Shown here: positions 14,552 through 64,000 of the stretch, in pieces
Layout of the letters: the number at the start of each line of letters is the position of its first letter
Position numbering within the stretch: position 1 is the first letter of the stretch
IMG/VR virus record: IMGVR_UViG_3300022752_000015
Coordinates: 148,805 to 212,804 of that record
Strand: one strand, 5' to 3'
Source of the DNA: a virus
Length of the DNA: 64,000 nt
Notes under the pieces: generated by a model
Database searches by the model: none
What the model was told of the DNA's origin: nothing
The model's input: the letters and a program-made list of their open reading frames with translations, nothing else
Program-made: the position numbers and the translations under genes

Positions 14552-14965
14552 ATGCCAGCACCTAGAGCAGTCCTAGCAGATATCTTAAACTTGGGATTAG
14601 ATCCAAAAAAATCCCATAGATCTTTGTCTAAAGATGGAAAGCTTAAGAATGCTTCTTTAGAAAAGAAGAAAGATCTTAAACCAGGTTTTGTTTTTGTACC
14701 GACGCAAGAAGAATCCGCCAAGGTGGAAACTCTAAAGCAAGAAAAGCATACCGAAATTATGGACGTTAGTCCTAACGTTGAAAACGAAAAAGTTACCATT
14801 ACTACTGATGCTTCCTTAAAAGAAAAAGAAGCTGACACTACATCCACAATTATTAAAGAAAAAGTGGAAGTTAATTTTTCAACTGATAAAAGTGTTGATG
14901 AACAGTCAGAAAAGCAAAAGAAAAAGCAATTATTTCAAAAGAAATCATTATCAAACAACAGCTGA
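14552..14965 (+). CDS. Lys/Glu-rich hypothetical protein
   Basis: 137 residues. The N-terminus PAPRAVLADILNLGLDPKKS is the only part that looks folded; the remainder is low-complexity and rich in Lys, Glu, Thr and Ser, probably disordered. AAGAGGA is a plausible ribosome site. It converges with the minus-strand region 4-like gene and overlaps its 3' end by 31 bases. Function unknown. Confidence 0.55.
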   Translation: MPAPRAVLADILNLGLDPKKSHRSLSKDGKLKNASLEKKKDLKPGFVFVPTQEESAKVETLKQEKHTEIMDVSPNVENEKVTITTDASLKEKEADTTSTIIKEKVEVNFSTDKSVDEQSEKQKKKQLFQKKSLSNNS

Positions 14966-15213
14966 AACTTTAACTTTTGAATGATGTTTTTTTCTATTTG
15001 ACAAATTCTCATTCTTGTCAATCCATATATTTTTCCTATATTTTGTAGGGTATATGGTCCTTTTTGAGCTGCAATGATTACACAGTTTTGATTATTTTTA
15101 TCATTCATGTAATTTTTGCAGCTGTCTTTATTGCAGTTGACGTTGTATTTAGCATGCGTCTCAAAGCAAGTAGCTGATTGTTTTAGTATTGGTAAACTTT
15201 TGCCTTTTGTCAT
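14935..15213 (-). CDS. Sigma region 4.2-like helix-turn-helix protein
   Basis: 92 residues. The C-terminal half reads GPYTLQNIGKIYGLTRMRIC then QIEKNIIQKLK, which follows the region 4.2 helix-turn-helix of sigma-70 factors (TLEEVGxxFxVTRERIRQIE). The N-terminal half carries several Cys (CFETHAKYNVNCNKDSCKNY), possibly a metal site. No sigma region 2 is present. The phage sigma factor at 54459-55292 lacks exactly this region, so the two may act as a pair that recognises -10 and -35 elements separately, analogous in logic to T4 gp55 and gp33. It is alone on the minus strand among plus-strand genes. Confidence 0.65.
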   Translation of the reverse strand: MTKGKSLPILKQSATCFETHAKYNVNCNKDSCKNYMNDKNNQNCVIIAAQKGPYTLQNIGKIYGLTRMRICQIEKNIIQKLKFQLLFDNDFF

Positions 15214-46628: not shown

Positions 46629-48509
46629 ATGAAATCTTTTACAATTGATCAGCTTGCACAGGGCATCAAAGAGCGTCACGTCGGCGCCGAGCGTGCCCGT
46701 CTTACAGAGAAGTGGAGCCGCACAGGTCTCCTCCGTGGCCTCGATGGCACACGTCGCGAAGTGATGGCACAGCTCCTTGAGAACCAGGCAGCACAGGTCC
46801 TCAAAGAGAGCAACAGCCTCTCAACAGGCGGTGGCAACGTGACATCAAGCGGACAGATCCAGGGCTTCACAAACATCGCGTTCCCAATCGTCCGTCGCGT
46901 CTTCGGCGGTCTCGTTTCAAACGAGCTTGTTTCAATCCAACCAATGAGCCTCCCCTCAGGTCTCATCTTCTACCTTGATTACACATATGGTACGAACGTT
47001 GGACAGGCAGCAGGCGACACAACAAACTCGACATACACACGCGGTCAGTCTATCTATAACAACCCCACGGGCAAGGGAGTCCAGAGCGGATCTCTCGCAA
47101 CGGGCGGTATGTATGACCTCGTAGGATCAGGTTACTCAAAGGTGACCGGTTCTCTCCAGGCATTCAACGTTGCAGGAGCAGGCGTTGCAGAGCTCGGTAT
47201 GTGGGTCGGTGCAGACGGTCAAGGTAGCTTCTACAACGGTATGCTTTCAAGCTCGTTGGATTTCAGCGGAAGCAACGCTCGTCTCATGGACTTCGATGGT
47301 CAGGTCGAGACAGCTCTCAGCCTCAACCAACTTGATGCATGCTTCCTCTACGTTTCGTCATCTGTCTTCACGACAGCAAACGCAGCAGCAGATCTCCTCG
47401 CAGTCGATCAGATCGCACTCTTCGGTGGTGTAACGGGAGCAACAGCATGGGGCAGCAGCTACCAAGGTGGAACGGGCGTTCTCAACCTCCGTCGCCTCAA
47501 TAAGCGTGGTAACTGGTCTACGACAGGGTTCACACCTGATGCACTTAACGGTACTCACGTACAGTTCGTCGTCAAGGGCGCAAATGCAGCTAATCTCGTC
47601 AAGACCTCAGGTGCTAATCTCGCGTTCTCTCTCAAGGCAGGCCTCACAGTTGACAGCTCAAGCGGCGCGACCCTAACGGTTCCCTCGTTCGAGTCTGACT
47701 TCGGAGCAACACCAGCACCAGCAATCCCAGAGATCGACATCAAGATCGAGTCGATTGCAATCACAGCAACAACCCGCAAGCTCCGTGCTCGCTGGTCACC
47801 AGAGCTCGCACAGGACCTCAACGCCTACCACAGCATGGACGCAGAGGTTGAGCTCACCTCGATCCTCTCAGAGCAGATCGCCCTTGAGATCGATCGCGAG
47901 ATTCTCAACGACCTCGTCACACAGGCCAACGGCGCCAATTACTACTGGTCACGCGCTCCTGGCAAGTTTGTCAACAAGACAACAGGCCAGCCTGTAACAC
48001 TCGCATCAAGCCTCTCAATCGGACCACAATTCACCGGTACGGTTCGCGAGTGGTACGAGACTCTCGTCGAGACAGTCATCGACGTTGCCAACACGATCCA
48101 CCGTAAGACACTCCGCGGATCAGCAAACTTCATGGTCACAGGACCAGACGTTGCAACAATCCTCGAGAGCTCGGTCCTCTACAAGCCCAAGTTCTCGATC
48201 GATGGCGAAGGTCAGGTCGGCAGCCCCTTCACAATCGGTGCAGAGGCAATCGGTACAGTCAGCAACCGCTTCACAGTCTACAAGGATCCTTACTTCCCAC
48301 GTAACAAGATCCTCGTCGGCTACAAGGGCGGAAGCTACCTCGAGACAGGATACGTATACGCACCATACGTTCCACTCATCGTGACGCCAACAATCTTCGC
48401 ACCTGAGGACTTCACACCACGTAAGGGCGTGATGACCCGCTACGGTAAGAAGATGGTCCGTTCGGACTTCTACGGCACCGTCACGGTACTCGACATGAAC
48501 ATCATCTGA
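46629..48509 (+). CDS. Major capsid protein (gp23-like)
   Basis: 626 residues. QIQGFTNIAFPIVRRVFGGL, VSIQPMSLPSGLIFYLDY, KARWSPELAQDLNAYHSMDA-type (here RARWSPELAQDLNAYHSMDA) and ELTSILSEQIALEIDREI are diagnostic for T4-type major capsid proteins with the HK97 fold. The N-terminal 60 residues form the propeptide, with L58-K59-E60 before Ser61 as the predicted cleavage site, near T4's position 65. Codons are strongly biased to C-ending forms (CTC, ATC, AAC, GTC), unlike the AT-rich late genes upstream. A strong terminator follows. Confidence 0.95.
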   Translation: MKSFTIDQLAQGIKERHVGAERARLTEKWSRTGLLRGLDGTRREVMAQLLENQAAQVLKESNSLSTGGGNVTSSGQIQGFTNIAFPIVRRVFGGLVSNELVSIQPMSLPSGLIFYLDYTYGTNVGQAAGDTTNSTYTRGQSIYNNPTGKGVQSGSLATGGMYDLVGSGYSKVTGSLQAFNVAGAGVAELGMWVGADGQGSFYNGMLSSSLDFSGSNARLMDFDGQVETALSLNQLDACFLYVSSSVFTTANAAADLLAVDQIALFGGVTGATAWGSSYQGGTGVLNLRRLNKRGNWSTTGFTPDALNGTHVQFVVKGANAANLVKTSGANLAFSLKAGLTVDSSSGATLTVPSFESDFGATPAPAIPEIDIKIESIAITATTRKLRARWSPELAQDLNAYHSMDAEVELTSILSEQIALEIDREILNDLVTQANGANYYWSRAPGKFVNKTTGQPVTLASSLSIGPQFTGTVREWYETLVETVIDVANTIHRKTLRGSANFMVTGPDVATILESSVLYKPKFSIDGEGQVGSPFTIGAEAIGTVSNRFTVYKDPYFPRNKILVGYKGGSYLETGYVYAPYVPLIVTPTIFAPEDFTPRKGVMTRYGKKMVRSDFYGTVTVLDMNII

Positions 48510-54227: not shown

Positions 54228-54462
54228 TTTTCCTATGAAATGTCTCGCCCCTAGAATGAGGTACCATTGATGGACCGAATCTGGTCGTCTGCAAGTATCG
54301 CAATCGTGAATTTAAGTTCCGTTCGACCAGCAGATCTTCTTTTACGTCTTCTTCCTCCTCAATTTCATCAGATTTTTTGTCACGGATCAACGTGTACAAA
54401 CTAACAAAAGAAGTGATCAGATTGATCGAACATAGGACAAGAATCAGACTTTCGCTGGTCAC
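54202..54462 (-). CDS. Small membrane-anchored protein
   Basis: 86 residues. ESLILVLCSINLITSFVSLY is one N-terminal membrane helix, then an acidic run (DEIEEEEDVKED) and a basic tail. It overlaps the sigma gene by four bases. The layout (helix, acidic, basic) suggests an inner-membrane protein with a cytoplasmic tail. Function unknown. Confidence 0.6.
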   Translation of the reverse strand: MTSESLILVLCSINLITSFVSLYTLIRDKKSDEIEEEEDVKEDLLVERNLNSRLRYLQTTRFGPSMVPHSRGETFHRKNDNDNEKR

Positions 54463-55292
54463 GTGAGACCTTCTCCCGTTGAGATCTTCTCAACTTGCTC
54501 TTGAGTGATCTTATAAGATTCATCGCTCAACACATCGTCGACCAGCCCGAACCGCAACCTCAAAATCGCAGCTTCCTTTGGAGAAAGGCCCACGATGACT
54601 CGTTGAGCCAACTCTAACATTTGCTTGGAAGAAAAAATCTCGAGTGGATCTGACGTAGGATCCGCCTCAATCTTATCTTCAATCGTGTCAGCATCTGGAT
54701 CTGAGGACAGAGGTTGATCAAGCGAAATAATCGATCGACCACTGATCCTCATCGCATTGAAGATTGCATCTGAAGTGCCTGTCAACTCCTTCAACTCTTC
54801 AGGAGTTGGCTCACATCCCATCGCGTTCCTGTATTCTTCGGCGGCTGTCAACAACTTCTTTTGAGTATTCACGGCATGCGCGGACATTCTGATGACCCGC
54901 TTCTGCTTCAGGATGTGTTGACCAATCGCTTGCCTAACCCACCAGGTCGCGTAGGTCGAGAACCTAAATCCCTTCTTCCAATCAAACTTCTCAATCGCTC
55001 GCATCAACCCCATGTTGCCTTCTTGAATGATGTCTTCGAGAGGCATGCTGTGGTTCTTGTACTGCTTCGCCACGTAAACGACCAAACGTAGATTGGCCTC
55101 GATCAACTTTTTCTTCGCAATTGCCGCGTCAGATCCTCCTGCTTCGAGAATCTTAAAGAGCTCCATCATCTGTTCGTGCGAAAGCTGCTGGTGATTCTTT
55201 AGAGAAGAAAAGTAGCGATTCATTGAATCGCCGCCGAAGGCTGACTCTCGAGAGTTTTCTCGAGAAATTGTGCCTTGAGAACTCAAATTCAA
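54459..55292 (-). CDS. Sigma-70-type factor lacking region 4.2
   Basis: 277 residues. Region 2 is complete: EANLRLVVYVAKQYKN, LEDIIQEGNMGLMRAIEKFD and FSTYATWWVRQAIGQHI. Region 3 (PTPEELKELTG..., SLDQPLS) and 4.1 (LSPKEAAILRLRFGL) follow. After that the protein ends within 30 residues, with no region 4.2 helix-turn-helix, the part that reads the -35 box. It is therefore intermediate between RpoD/RpoS-like factors and T4 gp55. A region 4.2-like protein is encoded separately at 14935-15213. Likely directs transcription of late genes. Confidence 0.88.
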   Translation of the reverse strand: MNLSSQGTISRENSRESAFGGDSMNRYFSSLKNHQQLSHEQMMELFKILEAGGSDAAIAKKKLIEANLRLVVYVAKQYKNHSMPLEDIIQEGNMGLMRAIEKFDWKKGFRFSTYATWWVRQAIGQHILKQKRVIRMSAHAVNTQKKLLTAAEEYRNAMGCEPTPEELKELTGTSDAIFNAMRISGRSIISLDQPLSSDPDADTIEDKIEADPTSDPLEIFSSKQMLELAQRVIVGLSPKEAAILRLRFGLVDDVLSDESYKITQEQVEKISTGEGLT

Positions 55293-57792: not shown

Positions 57793-57885
57793 TCAACCTT
57801 GCAGCAGGCCCCACCGCAGAACCCAGCCGATCGCTGCTCCGATGATTGCTCCTTCGGCGAAGGCCGCCGCGTGATCCTTCAGCAG
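57793..57885 (-). CDS. Possible CTG-start small membrane peptide
   Basis: A 30-codon frame overlaps the stop of the gene at 57879 and is preceded by AAGGAGGG. It encodes DHAAAFAEGAIIGAAIGWVL and ends RWGLLQG, a Gly-zipper membrane helix like the 28-residue array protein at 59649. Only CTG can start it, so it is uncertain; coupling to the upstream stop is the best argument. Confidence 0.25.
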   Translation of the reverse strand: MLKDHAAAFAEGAIIGAAIGWVLRWGLLQG

Positions 57886-58244
57886 CCCTCCTTGAGGAGT
57901 CGGAAGAACTTCTTCGGAGCCGACGGCCCGATACCGAGCTTGAGGAGGAGGGGGAAGGCCGCAAGCTTCTCGTTGAGCTGCGCCGTCTTCTCCGAGATCT
58001 CGCTGATGAGCGAGCCGTTCGTCGGAGGAGACATGTGCGACCCACCGTCCCTGACGTAGGTGGCGAAGGAGGTGCAGCTCTTGGCGAGCCTCTCGGCGCA
58101 GTCGGCAAGATCCTCGCGCAGCTGGTCGATCTTGCAGGCCGCCTCACGGACCTCCAGGAAGGCGGCCGTGCTCGCGAGGTACATCAGGCCGAGCGACTTG
58201 ATGGTAGCTTCCAGGGTGGACTCGTACTTGCCGGGGTTCTTCAT
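57879..58244 (-). CDS. Array gene 1: hypothetical protein
   Basis: 121 residues from the ATG at 58244, exactly six bases after a TATACT box; the longer frame upstream is translation through the promoter and is rejected. The protein is helical (EVREAACKIDQLREDLADCA and so on), ending FFRLLKEGC. No family recognised. It is the last unit of the minus-strand array before the GC-rich terminator region. Confidence 0.7.
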   Translation of the reverse strand: MKNPGKYESTLEATIKSLGLMYLASTAAFLEVREAACKIDQLREDLADCAERLAKSCTSFATYVRDGGSHMSPPTNGSLISEISEKTAQLNEKLAAFPLLLKLGIGPSAPKKFFRLLKEGC

Positions 58245-58250
58245 GGTCCT

Positions 58251-58279
58251 AGTATACCCTTTCTCAAATGAACTTTGCA
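58251..58279 (-). promoter_or_regulatory. Array promoter P1
   Basis: -35 TGCAAA, 17-base spacer (ending GAAAGGG), -10 TATACT, then AGGACC before ATG. Predicted transcript starts at the AUG. Confidence 0.75.
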
Positions 58280-58297
58280 CCGACGGGACGAACTTTT

Positions 58298-58483
58298 TCA
58301 GCCCCACTGTTTGGGGATGGCGAGCCGCAGCTTCTCGAGGATGTCACCGTAGGCGGTCAGTTCCTCGGCATCGAATTCGCTCAAGGCCGCGCGGATCCGT
58401 TTCGCCTCCTCGAGGGAGAGGTAGAGGTTGATGCCGTCTTCCTTGGTGCCGGTGGGGGAGGTGGCGGTCCGGGTGATCTTCAT
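58298..58483 (-). CDS. Array gene 2: small hypothetical protein
   Basis: 61 residues, mostly one helical hairpin (LSLEEAKRIRAALSEFDAEE). It begins six bases after a TAAGGT box. Its TGA is followed by AAAAAGTTC, an A tract that lies about 16 bases upstream of the next -35 box. No function recognised. Confidence 0.65.
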   Translation of the reverse strand: MKITRTATSPTGTKEDGINLYLSLEEAKRIRAALSEFDAEELTAYGDILEKLRLAIPKQWG

Positions 58484-58489
58484 GGTTCT

Positions 58490-58518
58490 ACCTTATCCTG
58501 TTCTGGGGTGACTTTGCA
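58490..58518 (-). promoter_or_regulatory. Array promoter P2
   Basis: -35 TGCAAA, 17-base spacer (GTCACCCC...), -10-position TAAGGT, then AGAACC before ATG. The AAGG could also act as a ribosome site, seven bases from the start. Confidence 0.65.
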
Positions 58519-58523
58519 CCGGA

Positions 58524-58700
58524 TCAGAGGATGGGATCGACCCCTTCGATCAAGGGGTAGTAGGAGACCTGGATTCCGTGGTAGCCGGCGTCGTAGAGCT
58601 TTTGGGCTTCCTTGACGATTCGCGACTGGCGGACTTGTTTCCGCCCGGGCTTGCCCTTGGGGGTGAAGTAGGCGATCTCGTAGATGGCTTCGTTCTTCAT
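58524..58700 (-). CDS. Array gene 3: small hypothetical protein
   Basis: 58 residues from the ATG at 58700. EIAYFTPKGKPGRKQVRQSR followed by IVKEAQKLYDAGYHGIQVSY suggests a small alpha/beta domain with a basic turn, perhaps nucleic-acid binding. Start fixed by the promoter position. Unknown function. Confidence 0.65.
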   Translation of the reverse strand: MKNEAIYEIAYFTPKGKPGRKQVRQSRIVKEAQKLYDAGYHGIQVSYYPLIEGVDPIL

Positions 58701-58706
58701 GGTCCC

Positions 58707-58735
58707 AGTATATCCTTTCCTCGTTGAACTTTGCA
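58707..58735 (-). promoter_or_regulatory. Array promoter P3
   Basis: -35 TGCAAA, 17-base spacer (GTTCAACGAGGAAAGGA), -10 TATACT, then GGGACC before ATG. Confidence 0.75.
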
Positions 58736-58751
58736 CCGATCCGCGAACTTT

Positions 58752-58937
58752 TTACACACCCATCTCTTCGAGGGCGTCCTGGCGCAGGATGTCGGTCACC
58801 TCCTCGCGGAGGTCCTTCCGGGCCGCCAGCTCCCAGAGGGAGGCGGTGAGGTTGGCCTGCATCTCGTGGTCGATCTTCCCCGCGGTGAGGAGATCGGTCA
58901 CCTGGGCGATGAGCTGGGCGATGTGTTTGGCGTCCAT
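58752..58937 (-). CDS. Array gene 4: small helical protein
   Basis: 61 residues from the ATG at 58937: HIAQLIAQVTDLLTAGKIDH then helices to ILRQDALEEMGV. Fully helical, acidic. Its stop TAA merges with an A tract (TAAAAAGTTC) ahead of the next promoter. Unknown function. Confidence 0.65.
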   Translation of the reverse strand: MDAKHIAQLIAQVTDLLTAGKIDHEMQANLTASLWELAARKDLREEVTDILRQDALEEMGV

Positions 58938-58943
58938 GGCCTC

Positions 58944-58972
58944 AGTATACCCTTTCGAGGAGGAACTTTGCA
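58944..58972 (-). promoter_or_regulatory. Array promoter P4
   Basis: -35 TGCAAA, 17-base spacer (ending CGAAAGGG), -10 TATACT, then GAGGCC before ATG. Confidence 0.75.
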
Positions 58973-58973
58973 C

Positions 58974-59147
58974 TCAGCCGTTGAGCTTTTCGCCGATCCG
59001 GGCCTTGAGTTCCTCGAGGGCGACCCGGTCCCGGAGATCCTTGAGGGCAACCAACTCCTCCTTCCAGTCGGGATCACCGTTGTAGGTCTCGATCTGGGTC
59101 ACGAGTGCCTCATAGAGGCGATTGAGGTCGATCTCGTCGAATTCCAT
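58974..59147 (-). CDS. Array gene 5: 57-residue helical protein
   Basis: Read from the ATG at 59147: MEFDEIDLNRLYEALVTQIE, then TYNGDPDWKEELVALKDLRD and an acidic/basic helix ending IGEKLNG. A helical pair with a GDPDW turn, as also seen in array gene 6 (RDDPDYRSLL), so genes 5 and 6 may be distant duplicates. It is shorter than 60 residues and easily missed; the promoter element supports it. Confidence 0.65.
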   Translation of the reverse strand: MEFDEIDLNRLYEALVTQIETYNGDPDWKEELVALKDLRDRVALEELKARIGEKLNG

Positions 59148-59153
59148 GGTTCT

Positions 59154-59182
59154 ACCTTACCTCGTTCAGGTGTGACTTTGCA
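59154..59182 (-). promoter_or_regulatory. Array promoter P5
   Basis: -35 TGCAAA, 17-base spacer (GTCACACCTGAACGAGG), -10-position TAAGGT, then AGAACC before ATG. Confidence 0.65.
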
Positions 59183-59183
59183 C

Positions 59184-59354
59184 TCAGTAGGGAAGATTCT
59201 CCAGGTGCTCGATGAGCTTCACCTGGAGCTTGAGGAGCGACCGGTAGTCAGGATCGTCGCGGAGGTCGATGGAGGTGTCCAGACGCATCCTCTCCCGGAC
59301 GGAGTCGAGGCCTTCGAGGATGAGCTTCGTTTCGGAGCGGGAGAGGTGTTCCAT
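59184..59354 (-). CDS. Array gene 6: 56-residue helical protein
   Basis: Read from the ATG at 59354: MEHLSRSETKLILEGLDSVR, then DTSIDLRDDPDYRSLLKLQV and KLIEHLENLPY. The helix-acidic turn-helix plan with DDPDY resembles array gene 5. Under 60 residues but with a perfect array promoter. Unknown function. Confidence 0.65.
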   Translation of the reverse strand: MEHLSRSETKLILEGLDSVRERMRLDTSIDLRDDPDYRSLLKLQVKLIEHLENLPY

Positions 59355-59360
59355 GGTTCT

Positions 59361-59389
59361 AGTATACCTCGTTCAGGGGTGACTTTGCA
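59361..59389 (-). promoter_or_regulatory. Array promoter P6
   Basis: -35 TGCAAA, 17-base spacer of the GTCA type, but -10 TATACT, then AGAACC before ATG: a hybrid of the two element subclasses. Confidence 0.72.
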
Positions 59390-59394
59390 CCGAC

Positions 59395-59607
59395 TCAGGC
59401 CCGGTTCAGGATCCGGTCGGCAGCCCGAGCTGTCATGATGTCCCGCCCACCGAGCCCGATTCGGTTGGCCTTGCGGACCGCGGCGGCGATGGAGGTCGAC
59501 CCGAAGTACCAGCCGACCGGGATGCAGTCTTCCTTGGAGAAGCCGTAGTAGGCCACGGCGGCGTAGAGGTAGGTGCGACGTGAGGGCTTCTTGGAGGTGG
59601 TCTTCAT
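59395..59607 (-). CDS. Array gene 7: small basic protein
   Basis: 70 residues. A basic N-terminus (KTTSKKPSRRTYLYAAVAYY) is followed by CIPVGWYFGSTSIAAAVRKA and a basic helix to ILNRA. The alternating basic/hydrophobic pattern could bind nucleic acid. Unknown function. Confidence 0.65.
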   Translation of the reverse strand: MKTTSKKPSRRTYLYAAVAYYGFSKEDCIPVGWYFGSTSIAAAVRKANRIGLGGRDIMTARAADRILNRA

Positions 59608-59613
59608 GGTTTT

Positions 59614-59642
59614 ACCTTATCCTGTTCGTGGTTGACTTTGCA
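59614..59642 (-). promoter_or_regulatory. Array promoter P7
   Basis: -35 TGCAAA, 17-base spacer (GTCAACCACGAACAGGA), -10-position TAAGGT, then AAAACC before ATG. Confidence 0.65.
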
Positions 59643-59648
59643 CCGGGT

Positions 59649-59735
59649 TCAGGCGGCCATCATCCACCAGGCCGCGAAGGCCGTGGAAGCGACGGTGACG
59701 ATGGCTCCGAGGATGTCAGCTGCGGCGTTCTTCAT
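59649..59735 (-). CDS. Array gene 8: 28-residue membrane peptide
   Basis: Read from the ATG at 59735: MKNAAADILGAIVTVASTAF then AAWWMMAA. It is almost wholly a single hydrophobic helix with two Trp near the end, as in small inner-membrane peptides. It fills the gap exactly between two array promoters, and its own promoter is one of the best. Too short for ordinary gene calling. Confidence 0.6.
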   Translation of the reverse strand: MKNAAADILGAIVTVASTAFAAWWMMAA

Positions 59736-59741
59736 GGTCCT

Positions 59742-59770
59742 AGTATATCCTATTCAGATGTGACTTTGCA
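59742..59770 (-). promoter_or_regulatory. Array promoter P8
   Basis: -35 TGCAAA, 17-base spacer (GTCACATCTGAATAGGA), -10 TATACT, then AGGACC before ATG. The coding end and TGA of array gene 9 (59754-59756) lie inside this promoter. Confidence 0.75.
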
Positions 59771-59930
59771 CCGACGCAGGAGGAACCAACTCCTCCGGCA
59801 CCACATTCTCTGGAGTCAAGACGTGACCACGGTAAAATGGCTGGAGCAACACGATGGCTCCCTCGACGGTCCGCGCCCGGACACACTCGCCGGTCTCGAC
59901 GTAGACCCACCACTTCGTCTTGGTCTTCAT
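59754..59930 (-). CDS. Array gene 9: small hypothetical protein
   Basis: 58 residues from the ATG at 59930. KTKTKWWVYVETGECVRART then EGAIVLLQPFYRGHVLTPEN reads as a small beta sheet. Its last codons (VQSHI) are encoded by the -35 box and spacer of the next promoter, so gene end and promoter share bases. First gene of the second block, right after hairpin A. Confidence 0.65.
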   Translation of the reverse strand: MKTKTKWWVYVETGECVRARTVEGAIVLLQPFYRGHVLTPENVVPEELVPPASVQSHI

Positions 59931-59936
59931 GCCACC

Positions 59937-59965
59937 AGTATATCCTTTCCCGGCGGAACTTTGCA
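59937..59965 (-). promoter_or_regulatory. Array promoter P9
   Basis: -35 TGCAAA, 17-base spacer (GTTCCGCCGGGAAAGGA), -10 TATACT, then GGTGGC before ATG. Lies just downstream (leftward) of hairpin A. Confidence 0.75.
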
Positions 59966-59992
59966 CCGACCTGGGAACTTTTTCTCAGATCA

Positions 59993-60081
59993 CCCAGGAT
60001 GCCCTTGGGGAGGCCGGAGGCAATTCGACCTAGGTTACCCCATTCCTAGATCCAAGAACCTCCCCAAGGGCATCCTAGGGG
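59993..60081. repeat. Hairpin A: 18-bp stem, 45-nt loop with conserved core
   Basis: AGGATGCCCTTGGGGAGG (59996-60013) pairs perfectly with CCTCCCCAAGGGCATCCT (60059-60076), extended past a one-base bulge by three GC pairs. The 45-base loop holds GACCTAGGTTACCCCAT at 60027-60043. Hairpin B at 63901 has a different stem but the same loop length, same bulge place and same core at the same offset. It lies between the stop of array gene 10 and promoter P9. No U tract, so not a usual terminator. Confidence 0.85.
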
Positions 60082-60093
60082 TTCAGGCGTGGG

Positions 60094-60837
60094 TCAGAAC
60101 TTCTCTGCCGGGACCCACTGGACGTTACCTGCCGAGTCCTTCACCCCTGCCCGGGCGTTCCACTTGCCGCGGTACTTGGAGACGCCGATCCAGAAGACCT
60201 TGCCGGTGAAGCCGTCGACTGTGACCGTGGTGCCCTTGGCAGGGATCCGGGCCAGCTGACCCTCAGCCACCGCCTTCTCGGCCTGGAGCTTGGCGTCACG
60301 CTTAGCCTGGCGGGCGTCCTTCTTCGCCTTCTCGGCGGCGGCGATGGCAGCCTGCTCAGCGCGTTTGGCCGCCCGTTCCGCCTCGATGCGGGCCATCCGG
60401 GCCGTGTGGAATGCCTCCCAGGCGGCACATCCGTCGAGCATCTCAGGACCACCGTGGAGGAGCTGCATGTCGAAGGGATCGACCGTGGCCGACAGCGAGT
60501 AGCCGTTGCGGTCGGAGAAGAGGTTGGTGCAGTCCACCCAGGCGAACTGTTCGTGGACCTCGAGATCGCGGACCTTGTCGGCATCCCACTTGAGGGCATC
60601 GATGTAGGCGAGGATCCGCTCACCGGCGTAGTGGTGCGGGCTGGGAGGGACGTTGCAGGTGCCGAGCCAGACGAGGGCCCAGGTGCACTCAGTCGAGCGG
60701 TGGTCCGAGTAGTCGAGGGTGTCCGACCAGTTGCGGGTCTCCGTCGTCTTCTCGATCCGCAGGACGCGGTGCTGGAAGAAGACCTCCGACGTGGAGGGGC
60801 CGGGACCGTAGGCGTAGCTCTTCTTGATGATCGGCAT
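60094..60837 (-). CDS. Array gene 10: hypothetical protein with Ala/Lys coiled region
   Basis: 247 residues, the largest array protein. The first 150 residues look globular (HRVLRIEKTTETRNWSDTLD, CTWALVWLGTC, FAWVDCTNLF). Residues about 150-200 are a charged Ala/Arg/Lys/Glu helix (ERAAKRAEQAAIAAAEKAKK). The C-terminal 45 residues (GTTVTVDGFTGKVFWIGVSK) resemble a small beta barrel of the KOW/SH3 kind. Last gene of the first block; hairpin A follows 13 bases after its stop. Confidence 0.65.
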   Translation of the reverse strand: MPIIKKSYAYGPGPSTSEVFFQHRVLRIEKTTETRNWSDTLDYSDHRSTECTWALVWLGTCNVPPSPHHYAGERILAYIDALKWDADKVRDLEVHEQFAWVDCTNLFSDRNGYSLSATVDPFDMQLLHGGPEMLDGCAAWEAFHTARMARIEAERAAKRAEQAAIAAAEKAKKDARQAKRDAKLQAEKAVAEGQLARIPAKGTTVTVDGFTGKVFWIGVSKYRGKWNARAGVKDSAGNVQWVPAEKF

Positions 60838-60843
60838 GGTTCT

Positions 60844-60872
60844 ACCCTATCCTGTTCAGGGTCGACTTTGCA
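60844..60872 (-). promoter_or_regulatory. Array promoter P10
   Basis: -35 TGCAAA, 17-base spacer (GTCGACCCTGAACAGGA), -10-position TAGGGT, then AGAACC before ATG. Confidence 0.65.
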
Positions 60873-60888
60873 CCACCGCCGCACTTTT

Positions 60889-61131
60889 TCAGTCGTCGTC
60901 CACCCCGAAGGTGGAGAGGGGCTCTTCCTCCTCTTCGTCCTCACCCAACTCTTCCTCCTCCTCGTCCTCGTCGATCTCTGCATCCTCCTCCTCGAGGAAC
61001 CCCTCACCCACTGCCATCTCGGCTACGTCGGCCTCCGACATGAAGGTCAGGCAGGCCCTCACGAGCACCTCGGCGTCCAAGGCACCCTCTTCCATCATCT
61101 CCAGCAGCTTGTTCGTAACTCGTCGCGTCAT
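60889..61131 (-). CDS. Array gene 11: small protein with acidic tail
   Basis: 80 residues. A helical N-terminal half (TNKLLEMMEEGALDAEVLVR) is followed by a run of Glu and Asp from about residue 47 to the end. Highly acidic small phage proteins can mimic DNA and inhibit host nucleases or transcription factors; that is an idea only. The TGA is followed by AAAAAGT. Confidence 0.65.
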   Translation of the reverse strand: MTRRVTNKLLEMMEEGALDAEVLVRACLTFMSEADVAEMAVGEGFLEEEDAEIDEDEEEEELGEDEEEEEPLSTFGVDDD

Positions 61132-61137
61132 GTTGTT

Positions 61138-61166
61138 ACCTTATCTTGTCGGGGGTTGACTTTACA
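61138..61166 (-). promoter_or_regulatory. Array promoter P11
   Basis: -35 TGTAAA, 17-base spacer (GTCAACCCCCGACAAGA), -10-position TAAGGT, then AACAAC before ATG. Confidence 0.62.
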
Positions 61167-61170
61167 CTGC

Positions 61171-61557
61171 TCAGGGGAGGGGCTTGAACTCGGGACCCTT
61201 GCCGAAGACCTCACGGTCTGCGTAGTGCCAGCTGTAGGTAGTCCCTCGCTCGTCCCCCGGCCGAAAGAGGTAGACGAACTCGTAACCACCGTCGTCGAAG
61301 CGGATGCTGCTCGCCTGGGTGTAGGTGGCGATGTCGAGTTCCTCACCACGGTCGCGGTGGTAGGCCTGCGTGTAATCCAGGTCCTCACCGAGCGACGACA
61401 AGCAACCGAGCGCCACGAGGTCGAGCACCTGACGGACCGTCGTGTAGTGTGCTTTGAGGGTGGCACCGACGCCTTTGAGGTAGCCGTCGTGGTGGCAGTA
61501 GACGCCGGTGACAGTGCCGTCGAGGTTCTGGATGCCGATGAAAGAGCGAGTGGACAT
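61171..61557 (-). CDS. Array gene 12: conserved hypothetical (SFIGIQNLDGTVTGVYCHHDG family)
   Basis: 128 residues from the ATG at 61557, six bases after AGGAG. It is the only array gene with a standard ribosome site, and it lies 64 bases downstream of its promoter-linked ATG, behind an eight-residue leader. RSFIGIQNLDGTVTGVYCHH, DGYLKGVGATL, YHRDRGEELD belong to a small protein family I recall from phages and actinobacteria with no known function. The 178-codon longer frame is rejected because it passes through the promoter. Confidence 0.7.
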   Translation of the reverse strand: MSTRSFIGIQNLDGTVTGVYCHHDGYLKGVGATLKAHYTTVRQVLDLVALGCLSSLGEDLDYTQAYHRDRGEELDIATYTQASSIRFDDGGYEFVYLFRPGDERGTTYSWHYADREVFGKGPEFKPLP

Positions 61558-61594
61558 GAGGTTCTCCTGGACGAGGGTTGGTGGCCGGATTGGT

Positions 61595-61621
61595 TCAGAT
61601 GCCGATCTTGATCGTTTCCAT
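61595..61621 (-). CDS. Eight-residue leader peptide upstream of array gene 12
   Basis: The ATG at the array-fixed position (61621) opens METIKIGI then TGA. The true gene starts 38 bases further on with its own ribosome site. A leader at a promoter-linked AUG could attenuate or couple translation, or be a relic of a lost array gene. Confidence 0.4.
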   Translation of the reverse strand: METIKIGI

Positions 61622-61627
61622 GGTTCT

Positions 61628-61656
61628 ACTCTATCAGGTCGTTGAGGAACTTTACA
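61628..61656 (-). promoter_or_regulatory. Array promoter P12
   Basis: -35 TGTAAA, 17-base spacer (GTTCCTCAACGACCTGA), -10-position TAGAGT, then AGAACC before ATG. The TAA stop of array gene 13 lies in the -35 box. Confidence 0.62.
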
Positions 61657-62383
61657 CTGCCTCTGTGCGACGAATTGCGACCGTCGGGGGAAGGGTACCA
61701 TCCCCACACCCGTACACCCGGATCGAATAGTTGGCGATTTCCTTGGGGTAACCCCTTCGGTCAGCCCGGCGGATGTGACGGAATCGATAGGTCCCAGGAT
61801 CCGGATACTTCCCAGTCATAGAAATGTAGGTCGGGGTGAGACGTAGAGTGCGGGAGCTTCCTCCGATGCGGAGACCCTTGAAGGCCGCATCGCCGAGCGT
61901 GTCATAGATCTGCTTACCAACGAGCTGCTCTGCAGTCCGTTGTGTCCTCTCGACCACCTGTGCGGGTGACTCCATGGTCAAAGTGATCTTCTGGGGCAAC
62001 ATTGTTGTCAGCATCTCCCCCAGCATGGCAACCATCGAGACCATGTTTTCCCGCCGCTTCAACGTCTCCAGGTCCATGTCGCCACCTGAGGTCGCCACTG
62101 CGATGCGGAGGTAGTTATCCAACACCATGGCACCTTCCTCATTGAGCTGTGCCCCCTTCGGGTCCGAGTTGTAGACGACGACCAGCGTGACGGAGGGGTT
62201 GGACTCGTGCCACGCGCTCCTCGTGGGATCCAGGTTGAAGTCGTACCGAATCCCCGTCGAGCCCTCCGTCACCTCCCGAGCGAGCACGTCTTGGTTGTAC
62301 TTGTTCATGTGCGCGACCACACCGTGAGAGCCGATGATGGCCTTGGCGGTGCGGAGGGCTTCGATCCGGGGTGTGGCGTCCAT
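61652..62383 (-). CDS. Array gene 13: hypothetical protein
   Basis: 243 residues. Beta-rich and helical parts alternate (VTLVVVYNSDPKGAQLNEEG, MVSMVAMLGEMLTTMLPQKI, YRFRHIRRADRRGYPKEIAN). No domain recognised. Its stop TAA is made by the TGTAAA -35 box of the next promoter, an economical overlap. Confidence 0.65.
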   Translation of the reverse strand: MDATPRIEALRTAKAIIGSHGVVAHMNKYNQDVLAREVTEGSTGIRYDFNLDPTRSAWHESNPSVTLVVVYNSDPKGAQLNEEGAMVLDNYLRIAVATSGGDMDLETLKRRENMVSMVAMLGEMLTTMLPQKITLTMESPAQVVERTQRTAEQLVGKQIYDTLGDAAFKGLRIGGSSRTLRLTPTYISMTGKYPDPGTYRFRHIRRADRRGYPKEIANYSIRVYGCGDGTLPPTVAIRRTEAV

Positions 62384-62389
62384 GGTTCT

Positions 62390-62418
62390 ACCTTACCTCA
62401 TTCGTCGTGCGCTTTGCA
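62390..62418 (-). promoter_or_regulatory. Array promoter P13
   Basis: -35 TGCAAA, 17-base spacer (GCGCACGACGAATGAGG), -10-position TAAGGT, then AGAACC before ATG. Confidence 0.65.
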
Positions 62419-62419
62419 C

Positions 62420-62638
62420 TCAGGTCACACCCCGCCGTGACAGTTCGATGCCGAGGAGCTTGTAGGCCGTGCGCCAGTTGCGGTGGCGGGCCCGGGCGAG
62501 GACTTGGGTGCCGGTGTCCACCTCGACGTGGAAGTCTCCCTTGACGCGGACGCTGCGGACCTCAAGGGGCGTGCCCTCACTGACGCAGAAGGAAGCAAGT
62601 TCGAGAACCTTTGCCTTGGGAGAGGAGTTGCGCTTCAT
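62420..62638 (-). CDS. Array gene 14: small basic protein
   Basis: 72 residues. KVLELASFCVSEGTPLEVRS, VKGDFHVEVD, RHRNWRTAYKLLGIELSRRG form a basic alpha/beta protein. The TGA is directly followed by the next -35 box. Possible nucleic-acid binding; unknown. Confidence 0.65.
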   Translation of the reverse strand: MKRNSSPKAKVLELASFCVSEGTPLEVRSVRVKGDFHVEVDTGTQVLARARHRNWRTAYKLLGIELSRRGVT

Positions 62639-62644
62639 GGTTCT

Positions 62645-62673
62645 AACTTACCTTGTTTGAGGTTGACTTTGCA
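62645..62673 (-). promoter_or_regulatory. Array promoter P14
   Basis: -35 TGCAAA, 17-base spacer (GTCAACCTCAAACAAGG), -10-position TAAGTT, then AGAACC before ATG. Confidence 0.65.
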
Positions 62674-62679
62674 CTGCCT

Positions 62680-62952
62680 TCAGCCAACCGCGAGAGAAAG
62701 TGCGCAGTAGCGGCCGTCGGGCAGAGTACCTTCGTAGTTGAGGCTGACGTTACCCTCGCCATCGTCGGCGATCTCGACGAAGTTGAAGGCGACAACCTTG
62801 CCCGTCCGGTGGCTGCGGACTGCGACCTTGGCCGGAGCACGACCACTTTGGGGGAAGTCAATGTGGTCGCTGACCGACCCCATACCGTGAGCGGCCTTGG
62901 CGTTGTACCAGTCGAACTTCGAACCGTCGAGGATGATCGGGAAGGTGTTCAT
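62680..62952 (-). CDS. Array gene 15: small hypothetical protein
   Basis: 90 residues from the ATG at 62952. NTFPIILDGSKFDWYNAKAA then PAKVAVRSHRTGKVVAFNFV and DGEGNVSLNYEG give a beta-rich fold. No match recognised. Confidence 0.65.
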   Translation of the reverse strand: MNTFPIILDGSKFDWYNAKAAHGMGSVSDHIDFPQSGRAPAKVAVRSHRTGKVVAFNFVEIADDGEGNVSLNYEGTLPDGRYCALSLAVG

Positions 62953-62958
62953 GGTCTC

Positions 62959-62987
62959 AGTATATCCTTTCGAGGTTGAACTTTGCA
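62959..62987 (-). promoter_or_regulatory. Array promoter P15
   Basis: -35 TGCAAA, 17-base spacer (GTTCAACCTCGAAAGGA), -10 TATACT, then GAGACC before ATG. Nearly the same spacer as P16. Confidence 0.75.
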
Positions 62988-63005
62988 CTGGATGGGTTGG
63001 GGTTT

Positions 63006-63344
63006 TCAGCCGCCGTCGGCCATGCGCATGGCGGCGTAGGCGTCGGCCGGTTTGGCGGGCTTCTTGCGCTTGGCCTTGCGTTGAGCTGCCCGATCCGCGG
63101 CCGCCGAGGCGGCCGGGTTGCAGACGGCCTTCTCCTTGCCGACGGAGTAGAGGATGTTGTCCCCTGGTTGGAATGGGCCGCTGAGGACCACGACGTCGCC
63201 GTCCTCGAGCTGTCCTGCTCGGGCGGCCATTGCGAGTTTGTCGAAGGCTGCGCGGGCTGCCGGCTCGCTGAGGAAGACGTGCTGGGCGGCGGAGCCTTCG
63301 TAGGAGACCAGGACCGAGACGACGTAGATTCCGATGTTCTTCAT
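63006..63344 (-). CDS. Array gene 16: protein with basic tail
   Basis: 112 residues from the ATG at 63344; a longer frame of 230 codons runs through other array genes and is rejected. KNIGIYVVSVLVSYEG is a first strand, AQHVFLSEPAARAAFDKLAM a helix, and GDVVVLSGPFQPGDNI a strand. A Lys/Arg/Ala-rich tail (AADRAAQRKAKRKKPAKPAD) follows and may bind DNA or RNA. Confidence 0.68.
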   Translation of the reverse strand: MKNIGIYVVSVLVSYEGSAAQHVFLSEPAARAAFDKLAMAARAGQLEDGDVVVLSGPFQPGDNILYSVGKEKAVCNPAASAAADRAAQRKAKRKKPAKPADAYAAMRMADGG

Positions 63345-63350
63345 GGTTGT

Positions 63351-63379
63351 AGTATACACTTTCGAGGTTGAACTTTGCA
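63351..63379 (-). promoter_or_regulatory. Array promoter P16
   Basis: -35 TGCAAA, 17-base spacer (GTTCAACCTCGAAAGTG), -10 TATACT, then ACAACC before ATG. Confidence 0.75.
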
Positions 63380-63384
63380 CGGAC

Positions 63385-63594
63385 TCAGTACAACTTTCGG
63401 CCGTGGGACAGGACCTCCGCCGCTCGAGCGAATGCCCTCGACAGAATCTCACATTCGGCACGGTTGAGGTACAGGGTGGCGGTGCCTCCGGAATCCTTGT
63501 CCGGACACCGGCCCTTGTGCTCGTCTCCCCGGACCGTCTGGACCAGGTCGAGGCGGAGGATGTCGTTGATGATGTCGAGGGGGTCGCGGTCCAT
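63385..63594 (-). CDS. Array gene 17: small hypothetical protein
   Basis: 69 residues from the ATG at 63594. DPLDIINDILRLDLVQTVRG then GGTATLYLNRAECEILSRAF reads helix-turn-strand-helix. No known motif. Its TGA is followed within a few bases by the next -35 box. Confidence 0.65.
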   Translation of the reverse strand: MDRDPLDIINDILRLDLVQTVRGDEHKGRCPDKDSGGTATLYLNRAECEILSRAFARAAEVLSHGRKLY

Positions 63595-63600
63595 GGTCCT

Positions 63601-63629
63601 AGTATACCCTTTCTGCTGGGAACTTTGCA
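63601..63629 (-). promoter_or_regulatory. Array promoter P17
   Basis: -35 TGCAAA, 17-base spacer (GTTCCCAGCAGAAAGGG), -10 TATACT, then AGGACC before ATG. A run of seven A lies about 16-20 bases upstream, as an UP element would. Confidence 0.78.
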
Positions 63630-63648
63630 CCGGGTGGAGAACTTTTTT

Positions 63649-63837
63649 TCAGACGTCCGAAGCGATCTGCGCCAGGAAGTGGGCGAGCGTCGAGGCATCG
63701 TCGTTCTGGAGGGTGATCGAGAAGCTCGGCCCGAACACGATCCGCGTCGTGTAAGGCAGCGGACCTTCCTCCACCTCGATGCGGTACTCGCGGGAGGTGT
63801 CTGCGTCGACGACCGTGAGCTTCTTGATGTGATCCAT
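63649..63837 (-). CDS. Array gene 18: small hypothetical protein
   Basis: 62 residues from the ATG at 63837. HIKKLTVVDADTSREYRIEV then TTRIVFGPSFSITLQNDDAS and a short helix: a compact beta sheet with a helix. First gene after hairpin B and the first array unit visible at the right edge. Its TGA starts an A run that serves the next promoter. Confidence 0.65.
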   Translation of the reverse strand: MDHIKKLTVVDADTSREYRIEVEEGPLPYTTRIVFGPSFSITLQNDDASTLAHFLAQIASDV

Positions 63838-63843
63838 GGTCCT

Positions 63844-63872
63844 AGTATACCCTTTCCACTGTGAACTTTGCA
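63844..63872 (-). promoter_or_regulatory. Array promoter P18
   Basis: -35 TGCAAA, 17-base spacer (GTTCACAGTGGAAAGGG), -10 TATACT, then AGGACC before ATG. Upstream lies an A run within GCGAAAAAAAGCGC, then hairpin B. Confidence 0.78.
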
Positions 63873-63900
63873 CTGACGGTCGCGCTTTTTTTCGCGATCC

Positions 63901-63988
63901 CCTGGGATGACCCAGGAGAGGTCGGGGAATGCCGGACCTAGGTTACCCCATCCGACCCCACGGTAGCCTCTCCTGGGTCATCCTCAGG
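63901..63988. repeat. Hairpin B: 17-bp stem, 45-nt loop with conserved core
   Basis: GGATGACCCAGGAGAGG (63905-63921) pairs perfectly with CCTCTCCTGGGTCATCC (63967-63983), extended past a one-base bulge by CCTG/CAGG. The 45-base loop has GACCTAGGTTACCCCAT at 63935-63951, at the same offset (13) as in hairpin A. The stems differ from A at several places but remain complementary, so the fold is conserved. It lies just upstream of array promoter P18. Confidence 0.85.
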
Positions 63989-64000
63989 CCCAGGACCTGG

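Follow-up and report, generated by a model that had tools for sequence, protein, structure and literature searches.

The element and the genes behind it

The window analyzed here is the 64-kb stretch that ends the 212,804-bp IMG/VR virus record IMGVR_UViG_3300022752_000015 (G000 in our set). It contains a minus-strand block (57879–63873) with a guanine-plus-cytosine (GC) content of approximately 60%, as compared to mostly 30–50% in the remainder of the record. In this block, 18 gene starts are preceded by the same DNA element, consisting of TG(C/T)AAA, 17 bases, a hexamer of the form TANNNT, 6 bases and ATG, with zero deviation. The open reading frames (ORFs) that follow encode 8–247 amino acids (aa), or 9–248 codons including the stop.

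All features of the array are located on the minus strand, and the coordinates of the elements include the ATG. Ten elements carry the hexamer TATACT, namely element 1 (63835–63873; gene 63649–63837, 62 aa), element 2 (63592–63630; gene 63385–63594, 69 aa), element 3 (63342–63380; gene 63006–63344, 112 aa), element 4 (62950–62988; gene 62680–62952, 90 aa, with an orthologue in G036), element 10 (59928–59966; gene 59754–59930, 58 aa), element 11 (59733–59771, overlapping the end of the preceding gene; gene 59649–59735, 28 aa), element 13 (59352–59390; gene 59184–59354, 56 aa), element 15 (58935–58973; gene 58752–58937, 61 aa), element 16 (58698–58736; gene 58524–58700, 58 aa) and element 18 (58242–58280; gene 57879–58244, 121 aa). 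The hexamer TAAGGT is found in five, which are element 6 (62381–62419; gene 61652–62383, 243 aa, orthologues in G036 and G006), element 8 (61129–61167; gene 60889–61131, 80 aa), element 12 (59605–59643; gene 59395–59607, 70 aa), element 14 (59145–59183; gene 58974–59147, 57 aa) and element 17 (58481–58519; gene 58298–58483, 61 aa). Three hexamers occur once each: TAAGTT in element 5 (62636–62674; gene 62420–62638, 72 aa; TAAGGT in the G036 orthologue), TAGAGT in element 7 (61619–61657; an 8-aa minigene, METIKIGI, at 61595–61621) and TAGGGT in element 9 (60835–60873; gene 60094–60837, 247 aa, orthologues in G036 and G006). The TANNNT hexamer sits exactly at position -12 from the start codon in all 18 elements, and T-12, A-11 and T-7 are invariant, although the search pattern had left the hexamer open.

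These results confirm the original prediction for this DNA, which had described 18 elements with distances of exactly 17 and 6 bases, TATACT in ten and other hexamers in eight, and ORFs of 9–248 codons. It had also stated that every gene start in the block has the element, which is true of the 18 starts and not of the 128-aa gene at 61171–61557 (phrog_1987), the second cistron behind element 7, which lacks an element of its own and has the Shine-Dalgarno (SD) sequence AGGAG. The view of each gene as its own transcription unit remains likely, with the amendment that this one element drives two ORFs.

A position matrix built from the 18 elements was used to scan the full 212.8-kb genome, as had been suggested with the original prediction. 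All 18 elements scored 33–47 bits, followed by two sites at 16.1 and 13.4 bits, both of which also end on ATG at the same offset, and no strong sites were found away from gene starts. The reversed-sequence control reached at most 11 bits. Diverged elements with GTGAAA upstream were observed on the minus strand at record positions 237, 8460, 9346 and 11090, in a region of 45% GC at the opposite end of the record. Occurrence of the element is not limited to the GC-rich block, and the array may continue across contig ends.

Geometry and base conservation

We counted sites for all combinations of spacers of 13–21 bases and gaps of 0–20 bases in G000, in the related record G006 and in 100 kb of the related record G018. 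Only the combination of 17 and 6 bases peaked, with 25, 36 and 21 sites, respectively, as compared to 0–5 sites for every other combination. GTG was found once at this combination, and ATG is the start codon used. With all loci pooled, the same combination gave 246 matches and gaps of 5 and 7 bases only 6 and 4, a count that is supportive only, since part of the loci were retrieved by the motif. T-12, A-11 and T-7 were fixed by the search pattern in the relatives, and the enrichment there lies in the single peak at 17 and 6 bases.

Over 75 sites, G-36 was conserved in 98%, G-14 in 91%, A-3 in 85% and C-1 in 87%, while positions -10, -9 and -8 were free. Sites that escaped the first pattern read GTGCAA or GTGAAA at an 18-bp spacer and show that the box can do without its last A. 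The originally described TG(C/T)AAA with its 17-base spacer is present in all 18 elements; however, because G occupies -36 in 98% of the sites and the last A can be lost, GTGCAA followed by an 18-bp spacer is the better description of the upstream box. The refined core is GTGCAA(A)-18 bp-TANNNT-6-ATG, in which positions -14 and -1 are G and C, respectively. For a sigma-70 promoter with a -35 box at a spacer of 16–18 bp, the match is GTGCAA at 18 bp (TGCAAA at 17), and no other spacer was enriched.

A run of 4–7 A residues was present in 8 of the 18 block sites. Among 236 sites, such a run starts at -57 to -50 in 68 (approximately 29%), of which 61 start at -55 to -52, and outside this cluster there are mostly 0–3 starts per position. 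This region lies outside every search pattern used. Both its placement and its sequence are consistent with an UP element; such runs often come after a stop codon (TGAAAAA), and gene packing may contribute to their position. Taken together, T-12/A-11/T-7, G-14 (as in an extended -10 element), the single spacer, the phased A-tract, C-1/A+1 and the recurrence in relatives support the proposal that every element forms a full sigma-70-type promoter, in agreement with the sigma-70-like promoters originally suggested. A TTC...GAA symmetry in the spacer was considered as an operator and rejected, its 3-bp arms being too short.

Recurrence in related viruses

The phage was assigned to the T4-like phages based on its portal protein (Portal_T4), terminase and major head protein. 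Its capsid protein showed 35–37% identity at full coverage to the best deposited relatives, an uncultured 484-kb phage and the Microcystis phage Mel-JY01, and 65–85% identity to the 80 best IMG/VR relatives. The capsid relatives in genome assemblies were five contigs of metagenome-assembled genomes from unrelated phyla, giving no pointer to the host. The block had no match among deposited phages in a similarity search, and none of the array proteins had a Pfam match above the cut-off. The major capsid gene region (46629–48509, plus strand) has a GC content of approximately 53%, between neighbours of 33–45%, as if codon-adapted to a GC-rich host.

Related records selected by capsid similarity alone, and not by the motif, were scanned with TGNAAA-17-TANNNT-6-ATG. 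The scan of relatives, also suggested earlier, revealed arrays in G006 (211 kb; 34 forward and 2 reverse sites) and G018 (298 kb; 4 and 21), as compared to 1 and 24 in the window's own record, and the reversed-pattern control gave no sites in all 27 records. Further viral contigs were picked out with a partial version of the motif; an over-strict pattern gave no match in a first scan, and a looser one selected 50 stretches. This added 19 records with up to 44 sites each (37 and 7 in the 278-kb G036), again with no sites in the control. Several contigs overlap or represent the same phage (for example G029 and G037, and probably G006 and G040), so the sites are not all independent. Overall, the arrangement is shared by about 20 related environmental virus contigs. 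Among deposited phages that are huge or cultured, five were scanned; two gave one match each and the other three none, which is not above the control.

Turnover of putative promoter-gene cassettes

Orthologous genes retain GTGCAA, TANNNT and ATG, and vary in the spacer and in the middle bases of the hexamer. The gene at 58752–58937 has TATACT in the window and TAAGGT in G001 (97% protein identity) and G036 (98%). TATACT and the TAAGGT-like hexamers, originally presented as distinct, are both TANNNT and interchange between orthologues, and we dropped the idea that they mark two regulatory classes.

The DNA adjoining the array is 92% identical between G036 and the window. About half of the 18 genes, as well as the 128-aa gene, were matched in G036, whereas several others are absent from it, and its array also holds different genes that have elements of their own. 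The next element begins at most 60 bp after the previous stop codon in 72 of 110 successive pairs, counted on contigs that partly overlap. This pattern fits the gain and loss of promoter-plus-ORF units. In the arrays of the window, L134, L203 and L208, the distances from stop codon to element cluster at 0, 3–6 and 15–18 bp.

A hairpin was also observed in two copies on the minus strand of the window (59985–60092 and 63881–63998), with arms of about 17–20 bp and a z-score of about -5. Its apical TGGGGTAACCTAGGTC is invariant, and the arms covary between the copies. The hairpin is also located beside the arrays of relatives (L152, L158, L161, L169 and L179). It had no match above the threshold in Rfam and is possibly a structured RNA.

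Predicted transcription start and translation signals

The 6-nucleotide gap after the -10 hexamer places the seventh base, which is the usual start position, on the A of the ATG, preceded by C. We infer that transcription would start on this A and yield leaderless mRNAs, the main consequence of the geometry and one that the original prediction had missed. A TANNNT motif approximately 12 bp upstream of the start codon was read as a mark of leaderless genes by Zheng et al. (PMC3160421), and Zhong et al. tested and confirmed that TANNNT acts as a promoter in Deinococcus (PMC12340547). In M. tuberculosis, the preferred transcription start is a purine that follows C (PMC3898074). AUG is strongly favoured in the leaderless translation of E. 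coli (PMC9031893), and because of this preference the exclusive use of ATG supports the leaderless reading.

The 128-aa protein has homologues in other arrays, and the upstream regions of their genes differ. In six distinct upstream regions, the element abuts the ATG at the exact geometry and AGGAG is absent. In the window and three other loci, where the METIKIGI minigene of 8 codons is identical, the element drives this small ORF and the ATG of the 128-aa gene follows 64–65 nucleotides on, preceded by CAGGAGAAC. The copy in G018 (L139) has no element and the upstream sequence TGAAAGGTACAC, and the copy in L147 has an element with a gap of 8 bases. AGGAG is thus found in these orthologues only when they are displaced from the element, suggesting that a real SD sequence appears away from the promoter. 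The METIKIGI product may be a leader peptide, or the minigene a device that gives the next gene a leader. Where the longer gaps of other arrays contain a second ORF, the picture with respect to SD sequences was mixed, several of these ORFs having diverged elements (gaps of 5 or 7 and a changed -35 box), and given this mixture the displacement comparison uses the 128-aa gene only. Elsewhere in the phage, SD sequences were found at 43 of 146 long ORFs, as compared to 9 in a control stretch. Among 28 capsid genes, 17 had a strict SD sequence and none had TANNNT at -12.

The proposed promoter would thus comprise an optional UP-like A-tract at -55 to -50, the -35 box GTGCAA at -36 to -31, an 18-bp spacer with G-14, the -10 box TANNNT at -12 to -7, C-1 and the start A+1, identical to the A of the ATG. 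Each small gene would be transcribed into its own leaderless mRNA, on which ribosomes would read from the 5' AUG without an SD sequence. The reader is likely to be the housekeeping RNA polymerase of the host, acting early in infection. Together, promoter and ORF would make up a cassette a few hundred bp long, which could be gained or lost without breaking regulation.

Sigma factors and alternative explanations

The window encodes a phage sigma factor on the minus strand, 3 kb downstream of the array (54459–55292, 277 aa), with regions 2 and 3, a 4.1-like end and no region 4.2. A 92-aa protein with the helix-turn-helix part of sigma-70 region 4 is encoded 40 kb away (14935–15213, minus strand) and may be the second half of the sigma factor. 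The sigma factor is apparently split in this way in several relatives; both proteins were found in G018, G036, G008 and G019. The pattern scan gave no array in G008 and G019, contigs that may be incomplete.

Based on its geometry and conservation, we consider it very probable that the element is a leaderless promoter. Several observations weigh against this reading or parts of it. AAGG, AGGA, GGAG or GAGG occurs at -15 to -5 in 65 of 236 elements, often inside the -10 hexamer, and some elements may have an SD role. A strict SD 5-mer was found in 22 of 241 elements; in the examples listed it is mostly GAGGT, next to the hexamer or partly within it. Counts of this kind are confounded, as the -10 hexamer can mimic an SD sequence, and the orthologues of the 128-aa gene offer the cleaner comparison. 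Moreover, the geometry is stricter than is usual for leaderless promoters, GTGCAA agrees with TTGACA at only three of six positions, and the proximity of a phage sigma gene leaves the host sigma factor as a presumption. A role of the element in translation, as a start-associated ribosome signal comparable to that of cluster K mycobacteriophages, on longer transcripts through the array, would agree with its always ending on the start codon and with the SD-like AAGG or AGGA that some hexamers (TAAGGT, TAGGAT) hold at normal SD spacing. However, 82 elements with TATA hexamers (TATACT, TATATT, TATAGT) lack both AGG and GGA around the ATG, the invariant TA...T together with a box 18 bp upstream is predicted by no SD model, and in the 128-aa orthologues a true AGGAG coincides precisely with displacement from the element; we regard this explanation as improbable. 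Even less credible is that we are dealing chiefly with a recombination or repeat sequence that travels with the genes and resembles a promoter only secondarily. The turnover of whole cassettes between G000 and G036 and the clustering of stop-to-element gaps at 0–6 and 15–18 bp are consistent with such a repeat, but outside the promoter positions the sites differ from one another, a sign of selection on function and not of recent copying, and strong sites are absent away from gene starts.

The remaining alternative differs from the leaderless-promoter reading with a host polymerase in the reader only, so that our confidence in one does not exclude the other. The same leaderless promoters could be read by a two-protein phage sigma factor, with the array as a middle or late regulon that has its own -35 specificity. 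The difference between GTGCAA and the usual TTGACA, the 277-aa sigma factor without region 4.2 and the 92-aa protein that could supply one are all consistent with this, as is the location of the sigma gene on the array strand, 3–20 kb away, in several contigs. The recognition helix of the 92-aa protein is altered as well, reading TRMRICQ where the E. coli counterpart is TRERIRQ. On the other hand, the possibly incomplete, array-less contigs G008 and G019 also have both proteins, and G006 has 34 elements and no sigma match, on a contig that ends inside the array. The small genes of no recognized family suggest early expression, and T4-like phages generally retain their sigma factor (gp55) for late genes, which we also count against a phage sigma factor. 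A simple k-mer comparison upstream of the structural genes for a T4-like late motif gave nothing clear. We hold a phage reader to be rather unlikely. More doubtful again is a dedicated leaderless regulon of about 18–37 one-gene promoter cassettes, in which the GTGCAA box would be read by the split phage sigma factor and the promoter-plus-ORF unit would be an exchange module. Given that the elements are promoters, the host sigma factor is favoured over that of the phage, because the genes are small and uncharacterized and the promoters strong and complete; on this sequence evidence, we find it somewhat probable that the host factor reads the elements.

Relation to known systems and implications

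The closest parallel is with the TA-led leaderless genes of Actinobacteria and Deinococcus-Thermus (PMC3160421, PMC3898074, PMC12340547), which share TANNNT at -12 and, as predicted for the array, a purine start after C and no need for an SD sequence. The array adds a fixed, strong GTGCAA -35 box, one spacer, one gap, ATG as the only start codon and a UP-like A-tract, whereas the leaderless genes of M. tuberculosis have no conserved -35 box; furthermore, a whole array of consecutive genes is involved here, and in a phage. The array appears to be a new form of the TANNNT-led leaderless genes known in bacteria. Among open-licence papers, we found none that describes an array of this kind in T4-like phages, and an earlier description elsewhere is possible.

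The start-associated sequences (SAS) and extended SAS (ESAS) of cluster K mycobacteriophages, to which the element was originally compared, resemble it in being conserved upstream of many non-structural starts, in one orientation, mostly at ATG and before unrelated genes (PMC3203893). The likeness is on the surface: SAS, GGGATAGGAGCCC, contains AGGAG, sits at the SD position 3–7 bp before the start and has a proposed role in translation (PMC3203893), and it lacks the -35/-10 geometry of the array. By inspection, no 13-bp match to GGGATAGGAGCCC within 2 mismatches was found 3–7 bp before the start at any of the sites.

The early and middle promoters of T4 are similar in that many promoters lie among the small early genes of a T4-like phage. 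The T4 early (sigma-70) promoters presumably use the host polymerase, and T4 promoters give ordinary leaders. As compared to the middle promoters, the box of the array, GTGCAAAG at -36 to -29, is not a MotA box: it reads GTGCAA(AG) 18 bp before the -10 hexamer, whereas the MotA box (TGCTTtA) is located approximately 12–13 bp before it. Searches for the MotA and AsiA families gave no match, but neither did the positive controls, and the absence of these families is not established. T4 gp55/gp33 and Bacillus SigO-RsoA are split sigma systems, and the likeness lies in having regions 2 and 4 on separate proteins, their joint action in this phage being putative.

The array illustrates one way in which genes may enter or leave a phage genome, namely as self-contained units. 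The element pinpoints the start codons of short genes in metagenomic phages, even of 8 codons only, that could not otherwise be annotated, and it provides a handle on what the RNA polymerase of an unknown host, or a phage sigma factor, recognizes. Should the mRNAs indeed be leaderless, a whole module of small genes, probably for host takeover, is expressed by a T4-like phage with no SD sequences and each from its own promoter, whereas the late genes of the same phage use SD sites. This would allow the early genes of the phage to be selected not only by the polymerase but also by the ribosome, and it would explain how unrelated small genes can be swapped without disturbing their neighbours.

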